From assembly GCF_021568705.1 (NCBI RefSeq), contig NZ_JAKGTH010000006.1, positions 558,001 to 622,000 on the forward strand: a stretch of DNA of 64,000 nucleotides, given 5' to 3'. Under the pieces are notes generated by a model, which saw nothing but the letters and a program-made list of their open reading frames with translations, was not told the origin of the DNA and did no database searches. Position 1 is the stretch's first letter; the number at the start of each line of letters is the position of its first letter. Origin of the DNA: Gillisia lutea (GTDB lineage: Bacteria > Bacteroidota > Bacteroidia > Flavobacteriales > Flavobacteriaceae). A program made the position numbers and the translations under genes. Shown here one piece after another: positions 18,201 to 43,121 of this stretch.

Positions 18201-19580
18201 ATGAAACATCTTAGCAGATTTTTATTAGCATCCTTAGCTATCTTGAGCTTTTCTAGCATTCAAGCGCAGGATGAGAATAACCCTTGGGCCATTGGAGTTG
18301 GTACCAACGTTGTCGATTTTTACCCAACAGGTGAAGACGCTCCCGCAGGAGGTTGGTTTGACCAATACTTTAACGGAGACCACTGGAATGTTATACCAGC
18401 CGTATCCAGACTATCTGTAGGTAGATATATTGGAGAAGGTTTCGTTTTTGAGGCTGCTGGTTCAATCAATCAATTAGATAAATTTGGAGATGAGAGCTTA
18501 GATAAGCTGTCATACTATGCAGTTGATGGTTCTGTTAACTACAGCTTAAGAGCGCTTTTAAATGATGGATGGTTTGACCCACAACTTGGTGTTGGTGGTG
18601 GTTACACTTGGGTTGATAGTGAAGGTTTCGGAACTTTAAACGGTACCGCTGGTTTCAATATCTGGTTTACAGATAATATTGCTTTAAATGTACAGTCAAC
18701 TTACAAGCATGCATTTCAGGATGAGAATAACCCTCATTTCCAACATGCAGCTGGTATTAAATTCGTTTTCGGAGGTAAAGATACTGACGGAGATGGAGTA
18801 TATGACAAAAATGACGAATGTCCTGAAACTCCAGGTTTAGTTGAGTTTAACGGATGTCCTGATACCGATGGTGATGGAATTGAAGACCGAAAAGATGCAT
18901 GTCCTGAGGTAGCTGGTTTAGCTGAATTTGATGGATGTCCTGATACCGATGGTGACGGAATTGCTGATCCTCAAGATGAATGTCCAAATGAAGCAGGAAC
19001 TGCTGAAATGAATGGATGTCCTGATGCTGACGGAGATGGTGTAAAAGATAGCGCTGATGATTGTCCGAATGAGGCTGGTCCTGCTGCTAACAACGGATGT
19101 CCTTACCAAGACAAAGATGGTGATGGTGTTCTTGATAAAGATGACCAATGTCCAGAAGTTGCAGGAACTGCTGCTAACAACGGATGTCCAGAGCCAACTG
19201 CCGAAGCTATCTCTGAATTGAACGAGTATTCTAAAACTGTATTGTTCGACTTGAATAAAGCAACAATTCGTCCAGAATCTGCAGAAGCATTGAAAGCTGT
19301 GTCTGATATCATGAATGAATATCCTGCTACTGTATTCCACATTGAAGGACATACTGATAGTCAAGGAAGTGATAAATACAACTTGAATCTTTCAAAAGAG
19401 CGTGCTGCTTCAGTGAAAGAATTCTTAACCGCTAACGGAGTTCCTGCTAACAGATTAACTTCTGAAGGTTATGGAGAGTCTAGACCAATTGCAACTAACA
19501 AAACTGCAAAAGGAAGACAAGACAACAGACGTGTTGAGATTTCTTTAGACAAGGACAAAGAAATGAAAGACAAAGAATAA
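18201..19580 (+). CDS. OmpA family outer-membrane protein with TSP3 repeats
   Basis: A signal peptide (residues 1 to about 22, ending SSIQAQ) precedes an N-terminal beta-barrel-like region to about 190. Five Asp-rich thrombospondin type 3 calcium-binding repeats (DxDGDGxxDxxDxCP) follow at about 194-330. The C-terminal OmpA peptidoglycan-binding domain has [14 protein letters not shown] and [18 protein letters not shown] with the Asp and the following Arg that bind diaminopimelate. It anchors the outer membrane to the wall. It is monocistronic, with a consensus promoter before it and a terminator after it. Confidence 0.95.
18780..19190 (+). repeat. In-gene tandem repeat coding five TSP3 units
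   Basis: Units of about 81-87 bp each encode DxDGDGxxDxxDxCP followed by a GCP ending. This is a coding repeat under protein constraint, not a CRISPR or satellite. Confidence 0.85.
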
Positions 19581-26802: not shown

Positions 26803-27255
26803 ATGAGTAAAATTAGGATCACCAAGCAATTCTCCTTTGAAACTGGCCATGCGCTTTATGGATATGATGGGAAATGCAAGAACGTACACGGACATAGTTA
26901 CAAGCTTAGTGTAACAGTTATTGGAACTCCTATTACCGATACCACCAATGTAAAATACGGGATGGTTATCGATTTTGGCGATCTTAAACGCATTGTAAAG
27001 TCGGAAATCGTAGATAAGTTCGATCACGCCACCGTTTTCAATAAGAACACACCTCATGTAGAACTTGCTGCCGAGCTTCAGCAAAGAGATCATAACGTGA
27101 TCTTGGTAAATTACCAACCAACCAGTGAGAACATGGTGATAGATTTTTCTGAAAAGATAAAAAAGAACTTGCCACCACACATCCAGTTACATTCCTTAAA
27201 ACTTCAGGAAACAGATACTTCTTTTGCCGAGTGGTATGCCTGTGACAACCAGTAG
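26803..27255 (+). CDS. queD: 6-carboxytetrahydropterin synthase (QueD/PTPS family)
   Basis: The 150-residue enzyme of the tunnelling fold would convert dihydroneopterin triphosphate to 6-carboxytetrahydropterin in queuosine/7-deazaguanine synthesis. Zinc ligands His16, His29 and His31 and catalytic Cys25 are seen in KCKNVHGHSYK, the CxxxHGH form typical of QueD. The VDKFDHATVFN segment holds the other catalytic residues. A role in tetrahydrobiopterin synthesis is less likely. Its TAG stop overlaps the first base of a structured repeat element. Confidence 0.92.
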   Translation: MSKIRITKQFSFETGHALYGYDGKCKNVHGHSYKLSVTVIGTPITDTTNVKYGMVIDFGDLKRIVKSEIVDKFDHATVFNKNTPHVELAAELQQRDHNVILVNYQPTSENMVIDFSEKIKKNLPPHIQLHSLKLQETDTSFAEWYACDNQ

Positions 27256-27344
27256 GGCGCAACCCACCCGAAAAGACCGGGCGGGTCGGGCTGTTCGCTA
27301 TATCCCCGATAAAAATCGGGGGATGCCGCTGCCATCCCTTGCGC
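27255..27344 (+). repeat. Structured dispersed element, copy 1
   Basis: Ninety bp, more GC-rich than its surroundings, lie directly after queD. The ends GCGCAA/TTGCGC form an outer stem. Inside are a hairpin closed by ACC/GGT with arms CACCCG/CGGGCG, the conserved block TCGGGCTGTTCGCT, and a second hairpin ATCCCCGAT/ATCGGGGGAT, then CCGCTGCCATCCCT. A second copy with the same layout but different stem bases is at 41634-41730 on the minus strand. It looks like a flavobacterial RNA or REP-like family; the Rfam Flavo-1 motif is a candidate identity that I cannot check. Confidence 0.75.
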
Positions 27345-27403
27345 AAGATTTCCTTTTATAAAAAGCCTCAATTTTAAGTATCTTTAAACGAATTCAATTA
27401 GTA

Positions 27404-28162
27404 ATGAACATTCCTCAGGGCAAAAAAATATATTTTTCAAGCGATAATCACTTGGGAGCTCCCACTCAGGAAGCAAGCAAATTGCGTGAAAAAAAGTTTG
27501 TGCAATGGCTGGATGAAGTAAAACAAGATGCTGCTGCTATATTTTTATTGGGAGATCTTTTCGATTTTTGGTTCGAGTACAAACATGTAGTGCCAAAAGG
27601 GTTTGTTAGAACTTTAGGGAAATTAGCCGAGATTAGAGACAGTGGAATTCCCATCTATTTCTTTGTAGGTAACCACGACCTTTGGATGAACGACTATTTT
27701 GAAAAAGAATTAAATATTCCCGTCTTCCACGAACCAAAGGAATTTGAATTTAATGGAAAAAAATTATTGGTGGGTCATGGCGATGGTCTGGGGCCGGGCG
27801 ATATTGGTTATAAGCGAATGAAAAAGGTTTTTACCAACCCTCTTTCAAAATGGTTATATGGCTGGTTACACCCCGATATTGGTGTGCCATTGGCGCAGTA
27901 TTTTTCGGTAAAGAATAAAGCTATTTCCGGCGAGGAAGATGTAAAGTTTCTGGGGGAAGAGAAAGAATGGCTCATACAATATTGTAGACGCCGACTTGAA
28001 ACACAACATTTCGATTATTTTGTTTTCGGCCATAGACACTTACCTCTGGAAATAGACCTGAATGGAAGCGCTACCTATGTTAATTTAGGAGACTGGATAA
28101 ATTATTATACCTATGGGGAATTTTACGGAGAGAAGCTGCAGCTTAAAGAATATAAGATCTAG
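27404..28162 (+). CDS. lpxH: UDP-2,3-diacylglucosamine diphosphatase
   Basis: The 252-residue calcineurin-like phosphoesterase hydrolyses UDP-2,3-diacylglucosamine to lipid X in lipid A synthesis. All metal-binding motifs are present: SSDNHLG (Asp14, His16), LLGDLFDFWFEY (Asp51), VGNHDLW (Asn90, His91), VGHGDGLGPGD and FGHRHLPLE. The motif pattern is that of LpxH rather than LpxI or LpxG. It is peripheral at the inner membrane. It overlaps the convergent downstream gene by 4 bp at the stops. Confidence 0.93.
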   Translation: MNIPQGKKIYFSSDNHLGAPTQEASKLREKKFVQWLDEVKQDAAAIFLLGDLFDFWFEYKHVVPKGFVRTLGKLAEIRDSGIPIYFFVGNHDLWMNDYFEKELNIPVFHEPKEFEFNGKKLLVGHGDGLGPGDIGYKRMKKVFTNPLSKWLYGWLHPDIGVPLAQYFSVKNKAISGEEDVKFLGEEKEWLIQYCRRRLETQHFDYFVFGHRHLPLEIDLNGSATYVNLGDWINYYTYGEFYGEKLQLKEYKI

Positions 28163-40447: not shown

Positions 40448-41560
40448 TTAAATAAGATCTGCCAGCTCTTTTCCTACTAAGCTTCCTATGGCAACCCCCA
40501 TTCCCCCCAGTCTAACTCCACAATACACATTTTCTGAAAGCTGCTTGAGAATAGGTTTCTTTTGTGCACCAACTCCCATTACACCACTCCACCTGTGTGC
40601 AATTTCGAAATCCTGGTCTGGGAGGATGGTATTTTTAAGCAATTCTTCCAGTTTATTTTGAATAACTGCTGTTTGCTCCATGACAGTGGTTTCTTCAGTC
40701 TTAAAATCCAGGTTACGCCCGCCACCAAATAAAACACGATTGTCGATATTTCGGAAATAATAATAACCTTTATCAAGATGAAAAGTACCTTTTATTGGAA
40801 GATCTTTAATAGGCGTAGTTATTAATACTTGTGCTCTCGCAGGTTTTACTTCTGATATTCCCAGTTTTGCAGCAAAGCCGTTGGTGGCAATCAGTAATTT
40901 TTTTGTGGTGAACTGAAATTGCTCTGTCTTTACTTCCACCTCTCCATTTTTCTCTGTGAATTCCTCTACATTAATAGTGTTTAAAATCTTGACCCCGGCC
41001 CGCTGTACCTTATAAAGCAATGCCTCCATCATTTTCCCGGTATTTATCTGCCCTTCATATTTGTTGTACAACAAGTTTTGATTTATATTCTTAAAACCAA
41101 ACGTATTAGCCACTTCACTAAAAGCCTTCTCCTTAAAAATAGGAAATAATAGCTTATTTACCTCTTGCATTTTAGACAGACAATTTGAGAATAATACCTC
41201 ATCTTGCGGTAAAAAAACTTCGTAACCTCCCCAATGTTTATAATCTATGTCATCATCTCCTAAATTCTGTCGCAGAAGTTGTAGGCCGTCAAGCTTTTTC
41301 TGAATAAGTTCTACTACTTCTGACGGGGTATGAGAATTAAGATCGTCTACAATTTCTGATAGGCTTCCAAAACAGGCGAAACCGGCATTTTTAGTACTTG
41401 CTCCGTTAGGTAAGAAGCCTCTTTCCAGAACAAGGATCTTGGCTTTAGGAAAACGGGATTTAAGATGTAAAGCGGTGTTTAAACCCACTATACCACTTCC
41501 TACAATGGTAAAGTCTATATTTGACAACCAGGTTTGATATTCCCAATAAGAAAGGTTCAT
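40448..41560 (-). CDS. FAD-dependent oxidoreductase (DAO family)
   Basis: The 370-residue protein has the FAD dinucleotide motif FTIVGSGIVGLNTALHL at about 17-33 and an acidic end of the second strand in ILVLERG. GASTKNAGFACFGSLSE and a C-terminal GVRLGGMGVAIGSLVG match the D-amino-acid oxidase/glycine oxidase superfamily. It oxidises an amine or hydroxy acid; the substrate is not determinable. No signal peptide. It is the first gene of a minus-strand group with mtgA and the GreA-like gene. Confidence 0.88.
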   Translation of the reverse strand: MNLSYWEYQTWLSNIDFTIVGSGIVGLNTALHLKSRFPKAKILVLERGFLPNGASTKNAGFACFGSLSEIVDDLNSHTPSEVVELIQKKLDGLQLLRQNLGDDDIDYKHWGGYEVFLPQDEVLFSNCLSKMQEVNKLLFPIFKEKAFSEVANTFGFKNINQNLLYNKYEGQINTGKMMEALLYKVQRAGVKILNTINVEEFTEKNGEVEVKTEQFQFTTKKLLIATNGFAAKLGISEVKPARAQVLITTPIKDLPIKGTFHLDKGYYYFRNIDNRVLFGGGRNLDFKTEETTVMEQTAVIQNKLEELLKNTILPDQDFEIAHRWSGVMGVGAQKKPILKQLSENVYCGVRLGGMGVAIGSLVGKELADLI

Positions 41561-41633
41561 GTATTTTTTTTAGATATTGAAAATTACATAAACTTTTTGA
41601 GAAGATGATTGCTATCATTTCTAACCCAGATTT

Positions 41634-41730
41634 GCGTTAGGGTTAGCAGCGGTTAGCTTTTTGGGGATTTTCTCCCAAAAACTAAAAGCGCATAGCCCGA
41701 CCTCGCTATTTTTATAGCATGGTAACGCCC
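41634..41730 (-). repeat. Structured dispersed element, copy 2
   Basis: Reading the minus strand, the 97-nt element begins GGGCGTTACC and ends CCCTAACGC. The outer stem is GCGTTA/TAACGC; hairpin one is closed by ACC/GGT with arms GCTAT/ATAGC; the conserved block is TCGGGCTATGCGCT; hairpin two is TTTTTGGGA/TCCCCAAAAA; then CCGCTGCTAACCCT. It matches copy 1 (27255-27344) in layout and in the unpaired blocks, while all three stems differ in sequence. It follows the accC terminator. Confidence 0.75.
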
Positions 41731-41763
41731 AAAAAAAGCAAACCCCCGATCGCTCGAGGGTTT
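41731..41763 (-). terminator. Terminator after accC
   Basis: On the minus strand AAACCCTCGA and TCGGGGGTTT form a stem with one mismatch and a 4-nt loop, followed by a T-run (41737-41731). Confidence 0.82.
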
Positions 41764-41768
41764 TAGTT

Positions 41769-43121
41769 TTATTCTTCTACAATGGGATTCATTTCCCAAC
41801 TTTCCATGAATTTAGTGGTGTAATTACCATCTATATAATCTGGATGATCCATTAGCTGCCTGTGGAAAGGAATAGTAGTTTTCACACCTTCTATTACAAA
41901 CTCGTCTAAGGCACGTCTCATTTTGCTAATTGCTTCTTCTCTGGTTTGAGCAGTAGTAATTAGTTTGGCGATCATAGAATCGTAATTTGGAGGAATAGAA
42001 TATCCGCTATAAACGTGAGTATCTATTCTAACTCCGTGTCCACCGGGAGCATGCAAGTTGGTGATCTTCCCTGGGGATGGTCTAAATCCGTTATAAGGAT
42101 CTTCTGCATTAATTCTACATTCAATAGAGTGCAGTTTTGGGAAATAATTCTTCCCTGAAAGCGGAATTCCAGCCGCAACTAAAATTTGCTCTCGAATTAG
42201 ATCGTAATCTATAACTTGCTCTGTAATTGGATGTTCTACCTGGATACGAGTATTCATTTCCATGAAGTAGAAATTACGATGTTTATCTACCAAAAATTCT
42301 ACAGTCCCTGCTCCTTCATATTTTATGAATTCTGCCGCTTTTACAGCCGCATCTCCCATTTCTTTACGAAGCTTGTCGGTCATGAACGGAGAAGGAGTTT
42401 CTTCGGTAAGTTTTTGATGTCTTCTTTGAATAGAGCAATCTCTTTCTGAAAGATGACAGGCTTTCCCGGTACTATCTCCAACTACCTGGATCTCGATATG
42501 GCGAGGCTCTAAAATAAGCTTCTCCATATACATTCCATCGTTTCCAAAAGCTGCTGCTGCTTCCTGACGGGCAGAATCCCATGCTGCTTGCAACTGGTCT
42601 TCTTTCATTACAGCACGCATCCCTTTACCTCCACCACCGGCGGTAGCTTTAAGCATAACGGGGAATCCCATGTCTTTAGCCACCTGAAGACATTCTTTAT
42701 AATCTTTTAATATCCCCTCTGATCCCGGAATACACGGCACTCCTGCAGCTATCATAGTAGCTCTGGCAGAGGCTTTATCTCCCATTTTATCGATCATGCT
42801 CGGGCTTGCCCCAATGAATTTGATATTGTGTTCCTGACAAATTTTTGAAAATTTAGAATTTTCTGCAAGGAATCCATATCCAGGGTGAATAGCATCAGCA
42901 TTCGTTATTTCAGCTGCTGCTATAATATTTGAGATCTTTAAATATGATAAATTACTAGGGGCTGGACCAATACATACAGCTTCATCAGCAAACCTTACAT
43001 GAAGGCTTTCGGCATCGGCAGTAGAATAAACCGCAACGGTTTTAATTCCCATTTCTCGACACGTTCTTATAACGCGCAAAGCGATTTCCCCTCTATTGGC
43101 AATTAATATTTTTTTAAACAT
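41769..43121 (-). CDS. accC: Acetyl-CoA carboxylase, biotin carboxylase subunit
   Basis: It carboxylates the biotin on BCCP using ATP and bicarbonate, the first half of malonyl-CoA formation. The 450-residue ATP-grasp enzyme shows [17 protein letters not shown], the glycine loop [28 protein letters not shown], the [15 protein letters not shown] catalytic region and the C-terminal [13 protein letters not shown]. It follows accB by 54 bp and ends before a terminator. Confidence 0.97.

Follow-up and report, generated by a model that had tools for sequence, protein, structure and literature searches.

The window, by which we mean the entire 64-kb stretch of Gillisia lutea DNA that was analyzed, contains two copies of a folded intergenic element. 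Strands are given for the element as it was read in the original prediction (the reader strand). Copy 1 lies at 27255..27344 on the plus strand, between a queD-like (PTPS) gene (26803..27255, plus strand; PF01242, E 8.2e-30) and a gene for a calcineurin-like, lpxH-like phosphoesterase (27404..28162, plus strand; PF00149). The TAG stop codon of the PF01242 gene occupies 27253-27255, and its last base is the first base of copy 1, exactly as the original prediction had placed it. Copy 2 lies at 41634..41730 on the minus strand, with accC, encoding biotin carboxylase (41769..43121, minus strand; PF02786, PF00289, PF02785), upstream and an FAD-dependent oxidoreductase gene (40448..41560, minus strand; PF01266) downstream. 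An intrinsic terminator of accC, recognized from the sequence, directly precedes copy 2 (41731..41764, minus strand; hairpin 41740-41764, T run 41731-41737) and is kept in orthologs of this site. At both copies, a promoter-like motif, identified by eye, apparently lies between the element and the next gene. No T run that would mark an intrinsic terminator follows the reader-strand 3′ ends, where the sequence reads AAGATTT after copy 1 and AAATCTG after copy 2.

The two copies, the short blocks they share and all three pairs of differing stems were found in the sequence as first described. In copy 1, the outer stem P1 is formed by GCGCAA (27257..27262), whose pairing is also backed by P1 covariation, and TTGCGC (27339..27344). 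The P2 hairpin spans 27263..27285; its pairing was correctly recognized, although its arms are longer than originally given and read CCCACCCG/CGGGCGGG. The remaining core (27288..27338) consists of GGGCTGTTCGCT, the hairpin ATCCCCGAT...ATCGGGGGAT and CCGCTGCCATCCC, which form P3 and P4 and match the helix described in Rfam. In copy 2, all on the minus strand, P1 is formed by GCGTTA (41723..41728) and TAACGC (41634..41639), P2 is the hairpin CCATGCTAT...ATAGCGAGG (41701..41722), and the P3/P4 core with its hairpin TTAGTTTTTGGGA...TCCCCAAAAAGCTAA spans 41640..41698, as supported by the cmscan match and by ortholog comparison. A search with a model of the full unit (R1, see below) revealed no third copy in the window. 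Elsewhere in the window, at 18786-19192, five DGDG-type coding repeats of ~81 bases, resembling calcium-binding repeats, lie within one open reading frame (18201-19580).

Family membership and the full-length unit

The candidate name Flavo-1 proved correct. In a cmscan search, both copies scored above the RF01705 gathering cut-off of 42 bits and aligned over the full model (1-76), each on the strand opposite to the reader strand: copy 1 at 27349-27280 on the minus strand (44.6 bits) and copy 2 at 41619-41706 on the plus strand (47.5 bits). Four copies in the genome pass this threshold. Flavo-1 RNA was described by Weinberg et al. in 2010 (PMC2864571) and is listed in Rfam under the type Gene; sRNA. 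The window copies share with the family its inner helix, its pattern of internal loops and its taxon, and the expected helix, with internal loops that are conserved and a terminal hairpin that varies, was seen both in the cmscan alignments and in column counts over 122 copies. The Rfam model, however, with its 76 positions on the opposite strand, is limited to P3 and P4, whereas the full-length form, termed here type A, adds P1 and P2. A covariance model of the whole unit comprising P1, P2, P3 and P4 (R1) matched copy 1 at 27252-27347 (69.5 bits) and copy 2 at 41733-41631 (89.0 bits). Both window features are thus Flavo-1 members in their full-length form.

A total of 125 raw copies were parsed, three of which were later dropped as spurious or truncated to leave 122. 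Type A, which accounts for 72 of the 125 raw copies, is a closed three-way junction of about 90-105 bases made up of the outer stem P1, the hairpin P2, the helix P3 and the hairpin P4. Its elements follow in the order T run, GG, P1, P2, TCGG, P3, P4 and the closing arm of P1, often with A's thereafter. P1 occurs as GCGTT../..AACGC, GCGCA/TGCGC, GCATG/CATGC, GGGTT/AACCC and other variants; P2 begins with CC and ends with GG and is otherwise almost any sequence; P3 contains invariant mismatches and carries P4, which is free in both sequence and length. Type B (42 of 125) lacks P2, has a short closing stem AGC/GCT, and is common in the Flavobacterium-like genomes of group g26 and in G028 and G036. 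While the family itself is known, we did not find a description of its full architecture, its orthologous retention or its indifference to strand in the literature searched.

Several copies contain or adjoin recurrent sequences. A TTCGTGCCTCAC-like sequence recurs in the P4 loops of L018, L032, L168, L169 and L174-L177, and in L018 it is present in the loops of both P2 and P4. Repeats of the type GTCATCCTGAGC...GTCGAAGGAT occur in or beside Flavo-1 at L014, in the spacers of copy 2 orthologs (L096, L098, L095, L100), and within the P4 loops of L031, L069 and L238. L053, L054 and L055 each carry a pair of Flavo-1 copies with the same orientation, separated by 224, 321 and 588 bases, respectively, which appear to be local duplications.

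Covariation and retention at gene junctions

The original prediction, which took the paired base changes between the two copies as a sign of selection on a folded strand, rested on there being covariation above background and further copies of the element. Both were found. In an alignment of 22 diverse type-A copies, themselves found partly by their pairing (A3), 99.2% of cells were paired as compared to 82% in shuffles, and 12 of 17 pairs showed changes on both sides as compared to 5.9 in shuffles, with neither figure reached by any of 500 shuffles. When the partners were slid by one to three columns, 35-44% of cells were paired. In a second alignment (A4; 51 hits drawn from five genomes within the genus, likewise found partly by pairing and fitted to the structure), 97.3% of cells were paired and 15 of 17 pairs changed on both sides. 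P1 offers a less biased test, because it lies outside the Rfam model. Sixty-nine copies were chosen by P3 orientation alone, and 60 of them have a perfect upstream partner for their own 3′ end; with the 3′ ends shuffled, the mean was 13.5 and the maximum 23. At the copy 2 site, three pairs changed on both sides among eight sequences, with a covariation score that was reached by 2 of 500 shuffles and exceeded by one of the slid pairings. This smaller change at a single site is to be expected with only eight sequences. The evidence for covariation, which extends to all stems, is therefore strong across the family and only moderate at a single site.

A protein dimer that reads double-stranded DNA would be expected to have a site with symmetric arms. 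Across 122 copies, the invariant or nearly invariant positions of the P3 helix are mostly those left unpaired, and mismatches that read C.T on the reader strand and hence G.A on the Rfam strand are present in 122 of 122 copies at several positions. That the two arms differ in the same way at every mismatch speaks for recognition of a folded strand and against a plain double-stranded dimer site. The signs as to which strand folds are conflicting. With RNA parameters, 94 of 122 copies fold better on the strand with the G.A mismatches, which is the Rfam strand, and with DNA parameters 105 of 122 do so; the reader strand, in turn, is favored by a T.G wobble conserved at the base of P4.

R1 detected 10 copies in this genome (G000), and 14 of the 16 genomes examined from the genus carry one or more. 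In a comparison with four other species, nine of the ten copies proved to occupy the same gene junction in at least one of them, and two did so in all five genomes. Over 12 sites, orthologous elements have a pairwise mean identity of 0.81 as compared to 0.64 for the adjoining spacers; at a few of the orthologous sites, the 5′ spacer is conserved as well as the element. From TCGGGCT to its 3′ end, copy 1 is identical in 54-59 of 59 bases in seven relatives, in which the 3′ spacer gives about 30-35 matches with many gaps and is mostly unalignable, with an identity of about 75-81% for the flanking genes. Some stems, in contrast, are exchanged: orthologs of copy 1 have other paired sequences in place of its P2 hairpin, and orthologs of copy 2 have another paired sequence in place of its P4, with P1 changed from GCGTT/AACGC to GGGTT/AACCC in six of them. 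Copy 1 is absent from G001, G003, G010, G011 and G013, and copy 2 from G001, G003, G010 and G013. The conservation of the elements above that of their spacers shows constraint, though not its purpose.

Distribution and dispersal

Matches to RF01705 were found in 140 of 396 genomes of class Bacteroidia, as befits a mainly Bacteroidetes family, and in none of 14 named control genomes. A blastn search of plasmids and phages with one type-B sequence as the query, which is a weak test, gave no match. Complete chromosomes carry up to 30 copies on both strands, and no replichore bias was detected in three of them. Copy number varies widely, and many genomes have no copy at all, so that any function must be dispensable.

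In some genomes, near-identical copies lie in unrelated flanks. One example is G018, in which ten copies are 95% identical and their 5′ flanks are no more alike (0.33) than shuffled sequence (0.31). The 3′ flanks are somewhat more alike (0.46), owing to a 3′ extension that some of the copies share. Near-identical copies in unlike 5′ flanks are a mark of past spreading. Among Flavobacterium-like genomes, both presence and absence of the element were observed at one site, with intergenic drift blurring the junctions; transposition is accordingly inferred from the copies, since a search for clean empty sites yielded none with a precise junction. Two candidate features of such a process were considered and rejected. 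Terminators were considered as a fixed target, but 28 of 118 copies have one no more than 20 nt from their 5′ end as compared to 13 of 118 on the mirrored side, which is a tendency only. The inverted pair of copies at L057 was considered as an autonomous version enclosing a gene, but the gene it flanks is truA-like, as judged from its sequence, and not a mobility gene.

Readings of the element

Flavo-1 has been in Rfam since 2010 without a function, listed among widespread small RNAs. The present analysis traces its full outline and shows that it is independent of gene orientation and that its fold has long been retained at fixed positions. Flavo-1 copies resemble dispersed DNA repeats more than they do typical RNA genes, and our best reading, given about even confidence, is that of a REP-like intergenic repeat that is recognized in folded, single-stranded form and that, once mobile, is now fixed in place by selection on the fold. 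A putative protein acting in trans would recognize the folded single strand as an extruded hairpin, as single-stranded DNA or as read-through RNA, and a putative mobility enzyme would have spread the element in trans. The analysis identified neither a protein partner nor a mobility enzyme, the latter sought chiefly as Y1_Tnp. Within this genus, Flavo-1 would no longer be moving and would be kept in place because its fold acts locally. By analogy to REP elements, the local role would most likely be that of a boundary between transcription units, through DNA topology, protein binding or protection of 3′ ends. According to background given in PMC6006769, gyrase, IHF and Pol I bind to REP elements, which also influence the ends of mRNAs. 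The position of both window copies between a gene end and the promoter-like motif noted by eye fits a boundary role. An unexplained "RNA family" thereby becomes a set of testable questions concerning the strand or molecule that folds, the protein that reads it and the agent that moves it.

The main rival is that Flavo-1 is what its Rfam label says, a transcribed RNA acting as a small RNA, a cis-acting leader or a 3′-UTR element, which we consider possible but rather less than probable. The G.A internal loops of the better-folding Rfam strand are RNA-like, and some copies on the sense strand precede a start codon by ~10 bases, an arrangement that would suit an RNA role. In Flavobacterium psychrophilum, several 5′ transcribed regions coincide with Flavo-1, but the elements there are found indistinctly in sense or antisense, and many lie outside transcripts; the picture is ambiguous, and the study drew no conclusion (PMC9723704). 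The copies analyzed here are similarly unbiased with respect to genes, with neighbor contexts of ++ (41), -- (30), +- (16) and -+ (17) and no difference between sense and antisense (p = 0.24). Neither a constant orientation nor a constant class of neighbor gene, as would be expected for a cis-regulatory RNA, was seen, and protein families common to the neighbors of different copies came only from orthologous sites. At copy 2, the accC terminator that precedes the element also speaks against a transcribed RNA.

A second rival holds that the copies are inert remnants of an old MITE, in which pairing was kept since dead copies had little time to decay. Such remnants would be consistent with the near-identical dispersed copies of some genomes and with the foreign repeats inside some hairpin loops. 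This reading is already disfavored, and we think it improbable: elements outlast spacers at orthologous sites, stems change on both sides, and the core of copy 1 is identical in G000 and G007 despite flanking genes that are only about 76-79% identical.

The original prediction also raised the possibility of a linked transposase of the TnpA_REP type, and a REP/REPIN-type element moved by TnpA_REP (RAYT) would share much with Flavo-1. Like REP, BIME and REPIN sequences, Flavo-1 copies are dispersed intergenic imperfect palindromes with conserved mismatches, and in both cases 3′ ends of genes are possible locations. TnpA_REP genes of the Bacteroidetes subclass 2.6 are described as having atypical secondary structures on their flanks (PMC6006769). 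PF01797 (Y1_Tnp) was searched in 40 relatives and in the 396 genomes of the class, and among the latter it was present in 29 of 34 high-copy genomes as compared to 239 of 362 others (p = 0.02, with no correction for ancestry). There are, however, 0 PF01797 matches in G000 and none in G018, G020, G025 and G017, which carry 5-24 copies, and five high-copy genomes from the class-wide sample also lack the family. When 20 Y1_Tnp loci of relatives were searched with both the Rfam set and R1, 0 of 20 were flanked by Flavo-1, although only two of them looked RAYT-like. Flavo-1 is also larger than REP, BIME and REPIN sequences (about 80-105 bases), it shows no lagging-strand bias, and the GT[AG]G foot is not conserved, with copy 1 reading GTAG (27252-27255), its orthologs TTAG or CTAG, and copy 2 TTTTTGGGCG. 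Movement by TnpA_REP is accordingly unlikely, and the linked transposase is not supported. At one of the searched loci (L039, 1944-1988), a sub-threshold match to Acido-Lenti-1 (35.5 bits, cut-off 37) lies beside a Y1_Tnp gene and perhaps represents an IS200/IS605 end.

Loci in G036 alone hint at Flavo-1 as a landing or boundary site for gene cassettes, a reading we consider very doubtful. In this genome, intact copies lie between core-gene terminators and a ~290-bp leader that fronts single genes, several of them defense-like; six of the seven copies are followed by this ~290-bp repeat and then by a different accessory gene each, and a RhuM-family gene lies behind the seventh. The stretch has 26 matches in G036, some of them partial, which are sometimes ~1 kb apart in the same direction, and the accessory genes that it fronts (at L179-L183, L207, L208 and L334-L352) are inserted after core genes. 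Several genes behind the repeat look like defense genes: STAND NTPases, an OLD/Gabija-like ATPase and a UvrD-like helicase for which PADLOC gave a match. This arrangement looks cassette-like, but most of the ~290-bp repeats have no intact Flavo-1, nothing similar was seen in G000 or the other genomes examined, where the homology between copies mostly ends with the element. A pattern scan of genome contigs for the G036 leader gave no match, and no integron integrase (TIGR02249) scored over the cut-off in 12 genomes including G000.

The attC consensus is RYYYAAC...GTTRRRY, with the inverse core at the 5′ end and the core at the 3′ end. Like attC sites, Flavo-1 copies fold into imperfect hairpins in which the loops are free and the unpaired bases conserved; unlike them, they have an outer stem of the form GTTA...TAAC with the opposite polarity, and no cassette array or integron integrase accompanies them here. 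Neither window copy has RYYYAAC at its 5′ end and GTTRRRY at its 3′ end. It is most improbable that Flavo-1 is, rather than an RNA gene, a folded-strand DNA site marking the joins between accessory genes and the chromosome, with lone copies, those of the window included, as empty sites.

In G036, Flavo-1 is also found interrupted or truncated within P4 by other sequence (L336, L337 and L351). At L351 (about 1323-1480, reversed strand), about 110 bp of other sequence separates two Flavo-1 halves.
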